A DNA stretch of 64,000 nucleotides from Alloacidobacterium dinghuense (GTDB lineage: Bacteria; Acidobacteriota; Terriglobia; Terriglobales; Acidobacteriaceae): the NCBI RefSeq assembly GCF_014274465.1, contig NZ_CP060394.1, forward strand, positions 124,001 through 188,000, in the 5' to 3' direction. The stretch's first letter is position 1. Every line of letters starts with the position of its first letter. Shown in pieces: positions 14,456 to 24,644 of this stretch. The notes below the pieces were generated by a model. It did no database searches. It was not told the DNA's origin and worked only from the letters and a program-made list of their open reading frames with translations. The position numbers and the translations under genes were made by a program.

Positions 14456-15898
14456 TCACGCGGCTGGTATGTGCAGAGTCACCCGCGTGCCATGGCCCGG
14501 TTGACTCGCAATTTCCGCGCGGCCGCCGTGAAGCACCATGATGCTCTGGACAATGGCTAGCCCGAGACCGGTGCCGCCTGACGTTTGCGAGCGCGACGTA
14601 TCTACACGGTAGAAACGATCGAATACTCTGGGGAGAGCTTCGGGCGGAATGCCGTCTCCTGTATCGGAAACTTCGATGCGAATCGTGGAATGCTCGGTAT
14701 TCGACTCAAGTATCACGGTTCCACCTGGCGGTGTATGCGCTAAGGCGTTTGCGATCAGATTACCGACCGCCCGTTGTATCAACGGACGGTCCAGTTCGCC
14801 GATCACCGGCCCTGTACTGACAGCCGTCATGAGCGAGATGCCACCCTCTGCCGCCGAAGCTTCATAGTATTCGCGAACACTGCCGAGCAATTCGTGCACA
14901 TCTACGGTTGCGCGACGCAAATGGTTCAATGGGCTTTCGGCGCGGGCAAGGAACAAGAGATCGCCGATGAGGTCAGATAGACGCACGGTTTCTTCCAGGC
15001 AGGATCCGAGCACATCGCGGTACTCGTCGACGGTTCGAGCACGGGCCAAAGCCACTTCTGCCTCCCCGCGGATGTTATTCACCGGTGTGCGCAAGTCGTG
15101 GGCGATATCGGCGGAAAATCTGGAGATGCGCTCGAAGGACTCTTCCAGACGATCGAGCATTTTATTGAAGGTGTCGGCCAGCGACGCCAGCTCAACCGGA
15201 TACCCTTCCGGGAGAATGCGCTCGTGCAAATTGCTGGAGCTGATGTGGCGAGCCGTGGTCGCCATTTCTTCCACGGGACGAATGCCGCGGCGCGCGATCT
15301 GATATCCGGCTACCGGGAAGATCACAAACGTTCCCAGCATGATAGCCCCGAACCAACGCCGATAGCGCGCCAGCAACTCTTCTTTCTGCGAGACGTCAAC
15401 CGCAATCTGAATGATGTCGGTATCAGTTGGCGGCGAGCCCACGGGCACTGCCGCACGCGTGACGCGAAATGGCTTCCCTTGCTTTCCCATCAACGCAATG
15501 GCGCGATCCGGGTGACTCTGGGCTTGGGCGATGAATTGCGGCAGGTCCAATTGCTCCGCCATGCCCGGCGTCGCCATCAACTGATTTCCTCGTTGATCCA
15601 GTAGACGAATATAAAACTGCTCGTATCGGCGTGCCGCTGATTCCAGTTCAACTTCTTCCCGCAGGGCGTCGATGTCATCAGGCCTTTCCCGCAGCATCGT
15701 GCCGAGCACATTCAGCTTGTCCGCGATGAACAGATCCGTGCTTCGCTCAAGCTCTGAGACCAGCACCACATAAAGCCCGGCGGTAGCGAGGAACACCGTG
15801 AGCAGGCCGGAAATCGCGTAGCCCGCGGTTAACCGGAAGGCCAGAGTACCCCACCATCTTCCGAGGGGGCCGATACTACTGGTCATGTTCCATGACAT
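14456..15898 (-). CDS. CusS/CopS-type sensor histidine kinase
   Basis: 480 residues with two membrane helices (~22-47 and ~182-202) enclosing a ~135-residue periplasmic sensor, then HAMP, HisKA and HATPase domains. The phosphoacceptor is H267 in DIAHDLRTP. The N box is [11 protein letters not shown], the G1 box DTGDGIPP, the F box FDRFYRVD and the G2 box GGTGLGLAI. The architecture matches the heavy-metal sensor kinase group. The gene overlaps its upstream response regulator by 23 bp, so they are translationally coupled. No metal efflux or copper genes lie beside it, so the signal is not established. Confidence 0.88.
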
Positions 15899-16550
15899 AG
15901 CCTGCGCCTCGTACGGTATGGATCAACTTCAGCGGAAAGGGTTCATCCACTTTGGCGCGCAGCCTCCTGACATTGACGTCTACGACATTTGTGTCGCTGT
16001 CGAAATTCATGTCCCAAACCGCTTCGGCGATCAAGGTGCGGGACAGCACCTCGCCTGCTCGGCGCGCCAACAGTGTGAGGAGGAGAAACTCCTTGTAAGT
16101 CAGATCCAACCGTTGGCCAGCCCGCGTCGCACGCTGGCGCAACAGATCAATTTCCAGGTCAGCCATGCGGATGGATTCCTGGGGTCGAGAGGGCCCCCGG
16201 CGCAACAGCGAACGGACGCGCGCCAGCAATTCTGAGAAGGCGAACGGCTTCACAAGGTAGTCGTCAGCACCGAGTTCCAATCCTCGTACGCGCTCCTGTA
16301 CTGAATCGCGGGCGGTTAAGAGAAGGACAAGGGACCGTCGTCCTGACTCGCGCAATCGGGTAAGCACTTGCCAGCCATCCAGGCCGGGCAGCATGACGTC
16401 CAGAATGAGCAAATCGAACTCAACTTCCCTCGCCAGGTGGAGGCCTTCCAAACCACCTCTCGCTACGTCGACGACAAAGCCCGCTTCATTGAGCCCCTTC
16501 TTGAGGAACTTCGCCGTTTTGACTTCATCTTCGACAACCAGAATTTTCAT
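15876..16550 (-). CDS. OmpR-family response regulator (CusR/CopR type)
   Basis: 224 residues from ATG 16550 (an in-frame TTG lies two codons upstream). The receiver has the acidic pair ED near residue 8, phospho-Asp D51 in [10 protein letters not shown], and the conserved TAR and K (YLVKPF). The C-terminal winged helix includes [16 protein letters not shown] and [18 protein letters not shown]. It heads the two-gene unit with the overlapping sensor kinase downstream. The likely role is a DNA-binding activator responding to the kinase. Targets are unknown; the TonB receptor and small secreted protein just beyond the kinase are candidates by position only. Confidence 0.88.
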
Positions 16551-16881
16551 GGGCAACAGCTCTGGACCCCTGGAATCAATATGCTTCGCCTGCTAGACCG
16601 ACTGGAATAGGAAGAGGAGCGGGCAACCATCCTTCTGTTAACCAATCAATACCTGACTATCCTCGAATCGATTGGCTGCGAGAAATACCCAAGATCAAGG
16701 GAATAGTCGCCCGTTGTTAAGGGAATGTCACAAAAACATTAATGCCATTCAAAACAGAACGAGGGCCGACAGCGCTTCGAGAGAGTAGATGGCTTGCGCC
16801 ACGACACATATGTCGGCATGCAACAGGCCTTGGAATTGTCCGATCTCGGAAGGGCTCGCTGAATCGGCGGCACGGCTCACT
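16551..16881. other. 331-bp intergenic region upstream of the two-component operon
   Basis: It holds the presumed promoter for the minus-strand regulator-kinase pair. AT-richer stretches (around 16640-16670 and 16720-16745) and a loose CCAATC/GATTGG dyad (16642-16675) are visible. Open frames crossing it on both strands lack start signals and recognisable sequence, so no gene is called. Confidence 0.4.
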
Positions 16882-17924: not shown

Positions 17925-18770
17925 TCAACTCCCTGTAGGAGTTGTCTGAATCTGACTGTGAGCAAGCCACTCGGAGGGCGGCAATCCGAGGTGTTGCGTA
18001 AAGACTCGCGATAGAGCTGTCGCATTCGCATATCCGACAGCGGGCGCGATGAGTTTCAGCGAATTGCCTTTACGCAACATTGTTTGGGCAACCGCCAGGC
18101 GCCAATTTGTCAGGTAATCGAATGGTGTGACGCCGACAACCCGGCGAAAGTGGGCGGCGAAGCGCGCACGAGACATGCCAGCATGTTGCGCCAGTTGTTC
18201 GAGCGACCAGGATGTCCCAGGGTGTTTATGCATGGCCTCAATTGCCCTGCCCAGACGAGAATCACTGAGTCCTATCAGGACTCCGCTATCGATCAGGCGC
18301 GCATTCATTGCTGATCGTATGAGAAGCACAAAGACATACTCGAACAATCGATCGATGGCGGCCTGACGGCCTGGTGATTCTGAGAAGGCCTCTGAGAACA
18401 AAAGCCGCAGTGTCGGCGCAAGTTCGGGAAGGGCATCGAGCGGAAGGACGAGCGGCTCAGGAAATGACGCAATGAGGGGATTCAACATTCCGGCGCCAAA
18501 TTCGATGGTGGCGCATACGAGTTCGGCGCCATCTTGCTCAGGGCCACGAAGACGGTGGCGGTGAGGGCGTGGAAAAAACACGATGCTCGGGATATCAATG
18601 ACTATCTGACGAGCATTTGGCTGAATGATTTTCAGCTTTCCTTTCTTGAGCACGTGAAGATGGCCAGCGAATTCGCTGTCATGATTACCGGTACTTCCGC
18701 ACAGGCGTCCCGAATAGAACACACGAGCCGTGAGAGAAAATCTTTCGAAGAAAGGCGTCAGTCGATCCAT
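17925..18770 (-). CDS. AraC-family regulator, RclR-like
   Basis: 281 residues. The N-terminal cupin-type sensing half (HVLKKGKLKIIQPNARQIVI, FFPRPHRHRL, AELVCATIEFG) is followed by the C-terminal double helix-turn-helix (SWSLEQLAQHAGMSRARFAA, then LKLIAPAVGYANATALSRVF). It is transcribed divergently from a DUF417 membrane protein. In E. coli that pairing is RclR (reactive-chlorine-sensing activator) and RclC, so a similar role is inferred. Cysteines are few (SGRLCGST, LVCATIE); whether they match RclR's redox cysteines needs an alignment. A cupin AraC of other specificity is the alternative. Confidence 0.82.
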   Translation of the reverse strand: MDRLTPFFERFSLTARVFYSGRLCGSTGNHDSEFAGHLHVLKKGKLKIIQPNARQIVIDIPSIVFFPRPHRHRLRGPEQDGAELVCATIEFGAGMLNPLIASFPEPLVLPLDALPELAPTLRLLFSEAFSESPGRQAAIDRLFEYVFVLLIRSAMNARLIDSGVLIGLSDSRLGRAIEAMHKHPGTSWSLEQLAQHAGMSRARFAAHFRRVVGVTPFDYLTNWRLAVAQTMLRKGNSLKLIAPAVGYANATALSRVFTQHLGLPPSEWLAHSQIQTTPTGS

Positions 18771-18899
18771 TTGAGACTACAGGATATCTGAAGGAGACGT
18801 TTAGTGACAATGCGTATCATCTCTTCCTTCAGAATACTTCTTGTGCAGCAGAGGCTGACAACAGTAAATCGCGTGGCCTCGCCTGGAAAGGACAAAATC

Positions 18900-19397
18900 G
18901 TGAAAATGCTCATCAGGCTCCTATCAAAAACGAGCCTCTTCAAAGGAGAGCTTGACAACCATCTCGTTCGCGCATCGATGGTGATCATCTATTTCTTCTT
19001 CGGGTATCAGAAATGGTTTAACTATGAAGCGCAGGGGCTGATTCCATTTTTTACCCACGGGGCTCTCATCTTTTGGATGTATCCGGTCTTTGGCATCAAA
19101 GGCTCCTCTTACTTCCTGGGCGTCTCCGAATGGCTGTTCGGGGCGTTGTTGTTGGCGGGGTTCTGGAACAAGAAACTGGGAGTGTTGGGAGCTCTCGGGT
19201 CAATATTTACCTTCATCGCGACGGTCACGATCATCCCCTTCATGCCGGATGGCTGGGCCGCTTCCGCTGGCGGATTTCCGGCAATGGTCGGAAATGTTGC
19301 TTTCCTGATGAAAGATGTGGTGCTGCTGGCTGTGTCGTTTTATCTAATGAAGCAGGATATTGTTAAGGTCACGTCTGCTGCTGAGATTGCGAGATGA
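18900..19397 (+). CDS. DUF417/YkgB (RclC-like) inner-membrane protein
   Basis: 165 residues from GTG 18900, chosen for its AAAGGA site 7 bases upstream, because it matches the usual N-terminus of the family, and because it leaves ~130 bp for divergent promoters. GTG 18804 also has an excellent AAGGAG site, so a 197-residue form or a leader is possible. Four helices are visible, with the family signatures VIIYFFFGYQKWFNYEAQGL, FGIKGSSYFLGVSEW and FPAMVGNVAFLMKD. E. coli RclC belongs to this family and protects against reactive chlorine; the mechanism is poorly known. It lies next to the AraC regulator and near katG/oxyR. Confidence 0.85.
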   Translation: MKMLIRLLSKTSLFKGELDNHLVRASMVIIYFFFGYQKWFNYEAQGLIPFFTHGALIFWMYPVFGIKGSSYFLGVSEWLFGALLLAGFWNKKLGVLGALGSIFTFIATVTIIPFMPDGWAASAGGFPAMVGNVAFLMKDVVLLAVSFYLMKQDIVKVTSAAEIAR

Positions 19398-19572: not shown

Positions 19573-21156
19573 ATGAACGACCAGAATGCGAAATTATTAG
19601 TAGTGGAATCTGACGATCTCCTGAGAGAAGCCCTCGCGGCCACGTTGAGAGACTCTGGATACGAGGTCTCAACCGACTACAGCGGGGGAATGAAAGCCGT
19701 TCTCGCTTTCGAGCCTGACCTCGTCATTCTCGGGGCGGACCCACCGCAGCTTGATTGTTGCGACCTTCTTTCTGAGATCAAAGGTTCAAAGCACACTCGC
19801 AATGTGCGAGTTGTGATGTTAGTTCATGGGAGTTCGGCGGAGCGAACTCGGGGATTGGATCTCGGGGCCGACGATGCATTGTCGCTGCCTCTTGATCCAC
19901 CCGAGTTCCTTTCGCGGATACGCTCTCAGCTTAAGAGCAAACAGGTCGCTGACGAGCTTGGGGAGCGGCTTCGCCTTACCGAGGAGCACGAGAACACCAA
20001 TCGGCAAGTGGTAACGGCGGTGAACGAGGAGCGACGGACGCTGCTTCTGGGCGCCGTAGCCATTGTTGCTGTGCTTATCATTGTTGGCCTTGTCTCATTC
20101 TCCTTCTACCGTCGTGGACATGCAGAAAACGTCAGGGTCTATGCCGCTATTACACGACTGCAAACCGGCGCGCTCTCGCAACAAAGCCTGATGCAACGTT
20201 CTCTCCAGAGCCTCGGAAACGAGACGGCGCGAACCACAAGCAGCCAACCGGAAGACAATGTTGCTCTCAAAGACCAGGTATCGGCAGTGGAAGGCCGCCT
20301 TCAGAAGCTCGAAACCGAAGGAAAAGCTGCACACACAATCATCGAGGCCGATGAGCCGAGCGTCTGTCTCATCCATGTTGCGCTCGCCTTCCGCGATCAC
20401 GATACCGGGTTGAAATTGCACTATGCGGCGCTGACAAGCACCGGCGAGCCTGAGACCGACAAGTCCAACAATCCCTTAGTGAGCCTTACAGGGATCGGTC
20501 CAGAGGTACACCTCGATGTTTTTGGCACCGGATTTCTTGCATCCGATGATGGACAGATCCTCACTAACCATCACGTCGCCGAACCCTGGTGGCAGAACGA
20601 CGAGATTAAGGAGATGCTCGATCAGGGGCTCGATCCGGAGATTGCTGAGATGACGGCTTATTTCCCCAGCGTGACTCATGGCATCTCGATCACAACCAAG
20701 AAGATTTCTTCCGACGCAGATGTTGCACTCGTCAAAGGAAATGTTTCAGGGCTTGGTATTCGGCATATTGCGCTGGCCGATGGGCGCGACTCGGCTGTCG
20801 GTGGCAGTCCGGTACTGTTGCTTGGCTATCCTACCGGCGTGGATGCGATTCTGGCACGAACTGGAGCAGCTACTCTTCAGGCGATTGCGGCGTCATCGAA
20901 GGGCGATCCGAAAGAGGTGATGGAAGAGCTCGCGCACCGTCATTTGATCAAGCCTGTCGCCACTCAGGGACACATCGGCGATGTACTGCCGGACAAAATC
21001 ATTTATGACGCCCAGACCACCCACGGCGGTTCTGGCGGCCCGCTCTTCAATGATCAAGGCCAGGTTATTGGTATCAATTTTGCGATGGTACGTGACTTCG
21101 GGGGGTCGAATTTTGCTATTCCCGCCCGTTTTGCAGAATCGCTCTTAAAGCCCTGA
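19573..21156 (+). CDS. Receiver-like domain / TM helix / trypsin-like serine protease fusion
   Basis: 527 residues. Residues 1-125 are a response-regulator receiver fold (LLVVESDDLLREALAATLRD, then LGADDALSLPLDPPEFLSRI). The position of the phosphoacceptor Asp in PDLVILG is glycine (G54), so normal phosphorylation is unlikely. A TM helix spans ~158-178, then a coiled-coil linker (~190-250). From ~310 there is a DegP/HtrA-style protease with H334 (TNHHV), D383 (SDADVALVK) and S487 (THGGSGGPLF). No PDZ domain is seen. The predicted layout is a cytoplasmic pseudo-receiver with a periplasmic protease. It sits between the DUF417 gene and the convergent katG. A signalling-controlled periplasmic protease is inference. 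Confidence 0.83.
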   Translation: MNDQNAKLLVVESDDLLREALAATLRDSGYEVSTDYSGGMKAVLAFEPDLVILGADPPQLDCCDLLSEIKGSKHTRNVRVVMLVHGSSAERTRGLDLGADDALSLPLDPPEFLSRIRSQLKSKQVADELGERLRLTEEHENTNRQVVTAVNEERRTLLLGAVAIVAVLIIVGLVSFSFYRRGHAENVRVYAAITRLQTGALSQQSLMQRSLQSLGNETARTTSSQPEDNVALKDQVSAVEGRLQKLETEGKAAHTIIEADEPSVCLIHVALAFRDHDTGLKLHYAALTSTGEPETDKSNNPLVSLTGIGPEVHLDVFGTGFLASDDGQILTNHHVAEPWWQNDEIKEMLDQGLDPEIAEMTAYFPSVTHGISITTKKISSDADVALVKGNVSGLGIRHIALADGRDSAVGGSPVLLLGYPTGVDAILARTGAATLQAIAASSKGDPKEVMEELAHRHLIKPVATQGHIGDVLPDKIIYDAQTTHGGSGGPLFNDQGQVIGINFAMVRDFGGSNFAIPARFAESLLKP

Positions 21157-23777: not shown

Positions 23778-24644
23778 ATGGAGTTTCATCAGCTGCGTTA
23801 TGTCTGTGCTATCGCGGAAACAGGAAGTTTCAGCCGCGCCGCCGAGCGCTGCCAGGTCGCCCAGCCCTCGCTCTCGCAACAAGTTCTTAAGCTTGAGGAA
23901 GATCTGGGTGCAAAACTCTTCGACCGCCTGGGGCGAAGCGTGCGCCTCACCGAGGCCGGTCGTGCCTTTCTGCCCCACGCCCGCTCAATTCTGAGCCAGA
24001 TGGAGACGGCGCGATCAAGCGTGGCCGATAAGTGCGCGGACGTTCGCGGCAGCGTGGCCGTAGGCGTTATCCCGACCATTGCGCCCTACCTGATGCCGCG
24101 CTGCACGACGGCCTTCACGAAGAAGTACCCTGATGCGAAGCTGCGCATTGTTGAAGAAACAACGCCGATCCTGGTCGAAAGCCTGCGAGACCTGTCGATC
24201 GATCTTGCGATTCTTGCTCTTCCGCTGCGTCACAAAGACCTGGAGTTGTTTCCCCTTAGCACCGAACCACTCTTCGCCGTGCTGCCCAAGGATCATCCCC
24301 GCGCCAGCGTAAAATCGCTTGCCCTCAAAGACCTCCGAGGAGAGTCTTTCGTCATGCTGCGCGACGGCCACTGTTTCCGCGACCTCAGCATCGCTGCCTG
24401 CGTCCACGCCCGCGTCACGCCGCGTATCGCGTTCGAGAGCGACCAGTTCAGCAGCCTTTTTGGAATGGTCGCCGCCGGGGTTGGCATCTCGCTCGTCCCA
24501 GAAATGGCGATAGACCGGAACGCCGGCTGCCGCTTCGTGCACCTCAGTGACGCGCGCGCGACTCGCACCATCGTTGCCGCCATTCTGCGCGGACGCAGCT
24601 TCAACCGCGTCCAGCAGGCCTTTTTGTCAGGAATCAAGAATTAG
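23778..24644 (+). CDS. oxyR: OxyR-type LysR-family peroxide sensor
   Basis: 288 residues. The LysR helix-turn-helix lies at 1-60 (EFHQLRYVCAIAETGSFSRA, then QPSLSQQVLKLEEDLG). The effector domain carries DGHCFRDLSIAAC, in which the cysteines fall at residues 199 and 208, exactly the positions and 8-residue spacing of the peroxide-sensing disulfide pair C199/C208 in E. coli OxyR. MVAAGVGISLVPEMA also matches OxyR. It is divergent from katG with 235 bp between starts. The predicted role is activation of katG on oxidation and probably autorepression. Confidence 0.92.
   Translation: MEFHQLRYVCAIAETGSFSRAAERCQVAQPSLSQQVLKLEEDLGAKLFDRLGRSVRLTEAGRAFLPHARSILSQMETARSSVADKCADVRGSVAVGVIPTIAPYLMPRCTTAFTKKYPDAKLRIVEETTPILVESLRDLSIDLAILALPLRHKDLELFPLSTEPLFAVLPKDHPRASVKSLALKDLRGESFVMLRDGHCFRDLSIAACVHARVTPRIAFESDQFSSLFGMVAAGVGISLVPEMAIDRNAGCRFVHLSDARATRTIVAAILRGRSFNRVQQAFLSGIKN

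Follow-up and report, generated by a model that had tools for sequence, protein, structure and literature searches.

Introduction

HtrA enzymes are usually trimers, and HtrA domains like that of DegS function in sensing stress. Dimers of OmpR/PhoB response regulators are marked by the alpha4-beta5-alpha5 face of the receiver domain (PMC2586830). According to the available passages of two sources (PMC12632262, PMC4395418), bacterial pseudo-receivers and aspartate-less receivers such as RitR, HP1021, KaiA and ShkA retain the common PF00072 fold without the phosphotransfer residues, and some of them use cysteines or ligands instead; a protease output of pseudo-receivers is not named in these passages. 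How such domains are switched on and off was called a mystery in a 2025 review (PMC12632262).

Here, a protein that combines features of these systems is described from Alloacidobacterium dinghuense. The window, i.e., the whole stretch of DNA that was analysed, comprises 64,000 nucleotides (NZ_CP060394.1, positions 124,001 to 188,000). A search of the open-access literature for receiver-protease fusions, membrane-bound response regulators and FHA-proteases found no relevant reports.

Architecture of the protein and its protease domain

The following features of the window are referred to below.

17925..18770, minus strand: AraC-type regulator (RclR-like), context only; also present beside the nearest orthologue
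18804..19397, plus strand: DUF417 (RclC-like) membrane protein, context only; DUF417 match 2.9e-24, under the RclC cut-off
19573..21156, plus strand: gene for a pseudo-receiver / membrane helix / HtrA-type protease of 527 aa (ORF, Pfam, full-length homologues)
19573..19938, plus strand: pseudo-receiver domain, residues 1-122, alpha5 extending to about 139 (Pfam Response_reg 9-116; receiver fold, Z 17-18.6)
19732..19734, plus strand: Gly54 at the phospho-Asp position (codon GGG; alignments)
19756..19761, plus strand: Cys62-Cys63 pair at the start of alpha3 (CC in 42/56 receiver-bearing homologues)
19843..19923, plus strand: alpha4-beta5-alpha5 face, residues 91-117, with R91, D96, D100, D101, E111, R115 and R117 kept (homologue conservation; RstA salt-bridge counterparts, PMC4117788)
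20038..20106, plus strand: single membrane helix, residues 156-178 (hydropathy scan; model helix 161-176, low pLDDT)
20119..20361, plus strand: helical, probably coiled linker, residues 183-263 (model; confident long helix in an FHA-type relative; weak periodicity)
20362..21153, plus strand: HtrA-like trypsin-fold protease domain without PDZ, residues 264-527 (Pfam, fold comparison)
20572..20574, plus strand: His334 of the catalytic triad, invariant
20719..20721, plus strand: Asp383 of the catalytic triad, invariant
21031..21033, plus strand: Ser487 of the catalytic triad (GGSGGP), invariant

A sequence-only reading of this DNA had proposed that a receiver, a single membrane helix, a coiled-coil linker and a serine protease are joined in one chain, and this order of domains was confirmed in the ORF at 19573-21156. 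The Pfam scan of the protein returned Response_reg at residues 9-116 (6.6e-11) and Trypsin_2 at residues 318-501 (2.7e-17). The full-length AlphaFold2 model has a mean pLDDT of 66, the two domains being modelled better and the membrane helix and linker poorly. The same domain order is conserved, in fused form, in 56 receiver-bearing homologues from Acidobacteriota, and is not a local fusion; a fusion artefact or misassembly was ruled out by the full-length homologues in other genomes.

The protease part has the trypsin fold and the intact H334/D383/S487 triad expected from the earlier description, the three residues being invariant in a 17-member alignment. In structure alignment, the modelled protease part matched DegS without its PDZ domain with a Z of 17.3. 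Like DegS and other membrane-anchored HtrA proteases, the family has an N-terminal membrane helix, a trypsin fold and a His-Asp-Ser triad, but it differs from them in the long helical linker, in the cytoplasmic signalling-fold domain in front, in a three-helix insert between GYP and TQG, and in the absence of the C-terminal PDZ domain, which was found in none of the 17 receiver-type and 16 FHA-type members scanned with Pfam. The protease is presumably active.

The hydropathy scan detected one strong hydrophobic stretch (residues 156-174; mean hydropathy 3.02, next best 1.23), in agreement with the single membrane helix proposed before. The positive-inside rule does not fix its orientation, the charges on the helix flanks being symmetrical (mean K+R 3.1 and 3.0). 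As receiver and FHA domains are cytoplasmic, an N-in topology with the protease in the periplasm is predicted. As for the coiled coil, its periodicity is weak in the window protein (p=0.05 for residues 228-263), but the model of an FHA-type relative (pLDDT 87) contains one confident helix (residues 138-224) that runs continuously through the membrane; the linker of the window protein is helical and probably coiled.

Receiver domain and loss of the phosphorylation site

In the AlphaFold2 model, residues 4-139 form a (beta-alpha)5 fold, and structure alignment with the solved receivers of NtrX, PleD, YycF and PhoB gave Z values of about 17-18.6. Both lines of evidence agree with the earlier assignment of residues 1-125 to a receiver fold, and the Pfam match places the domain in PF00072, to which pseudo-receivers belong. 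The residues of a canonical response regulator (a phosphorylatable Asp, an acidic pair and a Lys) are not in place: D54, K105, T84 and the second acidic residue are all missing from the window protein, which has Gly54, Leu105 and, at the acidic position, Ser13. It is thus a pseudo-receiver, as had been suggested.

The glycine on which that suggestion was based is real in the window protein but not general. Among the 56 receiver-bearing homologues, position 54 is occupied by Gly in 25, Glu in 14, Asp in nine, Ser in five and Asn in three, and it has changed at least eight times on the protease tree. An acidic residue at position 13 and a Lys at position 105 are absent from all 56, and none of these homologues has more than three of the five canonical active-site residues. 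The dN/dS values of the receiver (0.06-0.21; 0.05-0.11 for the protease) indicate purifying selection, and hence that the receiver is maintained.

The cysteines of the window protein are found at positions 62, 63 and 265, so that C62-C63, which lie next to the former active site where alpha3 begins, are the only ones in the putatively cytoplasmic part. The pair is present in all 36 members of the Gly and Glu clades and in 42 of the 56 homologues overall, with two changes on the tree, and the beta3-alpha3 segment has a mean conservation of 0.85. C62-C63 is a candidate input site; the pair sits at a different position (62-63) from the cysteines of the redox-sensing pseudo-receivers RitR and HP1021.

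Conservation of the alpha4-beta5-alpha5 face

Unlike the active site, the alpha4-beta5-alpha5 face is nearly invariant in the 56 homologues: E111 and R117 are found in all of them, R115 in 55 (Lys in the other one) and D100 in 55, and the position of D101 is Asp or Glu in 56, that of R91 Arg or Lys in 56, and that of D96 Asp or Glu in 54. The charged pairs typical of the OmpR/PhoB subfamily are therefore kept, D/E101 with R/K115 in 56/56 and D/E96 with R117 in 54/56. Their counterparts in RstA form the intermolecular salt bridges D97-R111 and E92-R113 (PMC4117788). Most of the dimer-face residues are common to three OmpR-like receivers of the same genome, while several are missing from a fourth, non-OmpR receiver. 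The window protein thus resembles OmpR/PhoB response regulators (e.g., the one encoded at window positions 15876-16556) in receiver sequence and in the residues of this face, but it has no phospho-Asp, Lys or DNA-binding domain and is membrane-bound. Compared with RitR, HP1021, KaiA and ShkA, its output would be a protease across the membrane, and the part that it has retained is the OmpR/PhoB dimer face.

Exchange of the cytoplasmic module

Outside the receiver clade, homologues with the same helix-coil-protease part (31-47% identity) begin with an FHA-type domain. Among 16 such members, Pfam detected FHA (PF00498) in five and the related domain Yop-YscD_cpl (PF16697) in eight, and in L170, which belongs to the class of the window organism, the FHA match reached 2.2e-15. 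Thus, these relatives carry FHA or YscD-type cytoplasmic domains on the same protease in the place where the clade of the window protein has its receiver. The protease of a modelled FHA-type relative (pLDDT 87) is DegS-like (Z 25.4); since the structure search with this model returned only protease matches among the matches listed, the evidence for the FHA fold comes from Pfam and predicted secondary structure.

In FHA domains, the Arg that follows a conserved Gly serves phosphothreonine binding. All 16 FHA-type rows of alignment A2 lack this Arg, and, as far as the alignment can tell, the FHA-type relatives mostly lack the phosphothreonine-binding arginine. No conserved operon was found around the FHA-type relatives; Ser/Thr-kinase-like genes were seen by eye near two of the 16.

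In the protease-domain trees, a branch (100*) separates the receiver-bearing rows from all others; they are adjacent to the FHA types, and the short-tailed forms from the window organism's family make up a separate group. These trees are unrooted, so that the direction of the exchange between FHA and receiver domains can only be suggested. Two members, L129 and L132, have lost most of the receiver but kept the helix, coil and protease, and a separate receiver gene lies just upstream. The stand-alone receiver genes directly upstream of receiver-losing members (L085:9233-9637 and L084:1850-2260) have the Asp.

This protease can therefore carry any of two or three exchangeable N-terminal modules, the receiver being one of them, a point that the sequence-only reading had missed. 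Judging from the sequences, the cytoplasmic module of the protease is swappable, and twice it is a phospho-signalling fold that appears to have lost phosphate recognition.

Gene neighbourhood

The gene had been reported to lie between rclC-like and katG/oxyR genes. These neighbours are present as described, but the OxyR and RclC matches are below the curated NCBIfam cut-offs. The "OxyR" next to katG (window 23778-24644) belongs to the LysR regulators; GltC is its best NCBIfam match, and every match is below cut-off. Upstream of G182, the nearest orthologue, the AraC-DUF417 pair occurs again, and the gene is followed by an AhpD-like CMD gene in both G182 and L091; no neighbours are shared with more distant orthologues. 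As a general clue to function, the katG/oxyR/rclC setting did not hold: the only recurrent neighbours are AraC-DUF417-CMD, and they are confined to the closest relatives, so the stress-gene setting is weak evidence.

Possible mode of action

Taken together, these data give about an even chance to a model in which phosphorylation-independent pairing of the cytoplasmic domains is relayed by the membrane helix to the protease in the periplasm. The protein would then be a membrane-anchored HtrA-type serine protease with a periplasmic catalytic domain and a cytoplasmic receiver-derived domain, which would have given up phosphorylation to act by protein contact, pairing through its OmpR/PhoB-type alpha4-beta5-alpha5 face. 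A cytoplasmic partner, ligand or redox change might act on the rebuilt beta3-alpha3 pocket (Gly54, Cys62-Cys63), and the pairing, or its loss or regrouping, would alter how the continuous transmembrane helix packs, with consequences for how the protease on the outside assembles or how active it is. This model is suggested by the loss of the phosphorylation site in the 56 homologues while the dimer-face residues stay near invariant, and by the conservation of the helix-coil-protease part while the cytoplasmic module is exchanged (FHA-type and short forms). On the other hand, the trimers of HtrA enzymes and the dimers of receiver faces do not match simply in symmetry, the helix and linker are of low confidence in the full-length model, and the loss of most of the receiver in L129 and L132 indicates that a fused receiver is not indispensable.

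The main rival, which we regard as unlikely, is that the receiver is a passive tether that receives no signal: a constitutive dimer clamp that would only concentrate the protease locally or set its oligomeric state. The free drift of position 54 under a constant dimer face would fit such a clamp, as would the receiver loss in L129/L132 and the family's short-tailed forms without any such domain, but the cysteine pair and the beta3-alpha3 segment are over-conserved for a pure clamp acting on the opposite face. In a redox switch, Cys62-Cys63 would respond to peroxide, hypochlorite or quinone in the cytoplasm, altering the dimer as in RitR and HP1021 and thereby triggering proteolysis outside. 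Pseudo-receivers under redox control and the binding of quinone at beta3-alpha3 of KaiA have been described (PMC12632262), and the AraC-DUF417 and AhpD-like CMD genes beside the gene in the nearest relatives, together with the occurrence of the pair, are consistent with a redox switch; however, the pair is missing in 14 of the 56 homologues, the gene context is not conserved beyond three genomes, and adjacent cysteines could also be structural or metal-binding, which makes this explanation quite improbable. Slightly less credible still is a sensor working from the outside in, in which the periplasmic domain would detect damage or misfolded protein, to be reported to a cytoplasmic partner by the receiver-like domain: the anatomy fits either direction and HtrA domains such as DegS are stress sensors, but the invariant catalytic triad argues for cleavage as the output. 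That the receiver is still phosphorylated, on the Asp of the deeper members or at another site of the pocket, is highly implausible, as Lys105 and the second acidic residue are missing in all 56 homologues and the window protein has Gly54, even though nine homologues keep Asp at this position and some altered receivers retain weak phosphorylation (PMC12632262).

If signalling runs outward, relatives of response regulators would have gained an output outside the cytoplasm, which was not described in the literature found, and the family may represent an unusual inside-to-outside control of protein cutting. The exchange with FHA-type domains means that the protease accepts different cytoplasmic modules. 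More broadly, and only tentatively, we propose that in these membrane proteases of Acidobacteriota FHA-type and receiver domains were exchanged and both forms gave up phosphate recognition, coming to rely on pairing and on a new kind of input, which may be a redox signal via the cysteine pair, giving response-regulator descendants whose output is regulated extracytoplasmic proteolysis. The family offers a natural series in which the phosphorylation site decays in many ways against a constant pairing face and enzyme, and it allows one to ask directly what a receiver does after the loss of phosphate.

Distribution, paralogue and decayed copies

Besides its own genome, 19 of 200 genomes sampled from the window organism's family contained a match to the protein at E < 1e-100, mostly spanning both receiver and protease. 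In the class sample, E <= 1e-60 was reached in 74 of 399 genomes, a second family (f91) accounting for most of them, and three of the weaker matches (L170-L172) were FHA types. A scan of genome contigs with the single protein as query gave no match; the alignment-based scan of 84,980 species then found 48 relatives and one receiver-only match in Lentilactobacillus. Records named Acidobacteriota or its subgroups account for 46 of the 48 relatives, and the other two are Verrucomicrobiota MAGs, which may be misbinned.

The same genome encodes an intact paralogue (C1:2531344-2532921) with Glu at position 54, directly followed by a DUF3300 gene (L009:8922-10064; PF11737, 1.1e-68). Decayed copies of the gene, in which an internal deletion has fused the N- and C-terminal ends or only the C-terminus is left, are located at G000:C1:5221574-5221826 (L010:7575-7827), C1:421004-421075 (L011:8005-8073) and C1:2996828-2996905 (L012). 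Each of them lies beside a CMD gene, and two also lie beside AraC/DUF417 genes or remnants. It seems that the whole stress-gene block was duplicated and then eroded in this genome. A search for tRNA in the L010 locus found none; a phage-integrase-family gene (L010:5119-6357; PF00589, 7.6e-24) adjoins the duplicated block there. Short-tailed membrane-anchored protease relatives of 320-420 aa, without a cytoplasmic domain (L032-L041 and others), are found in many genomes of the window's family.
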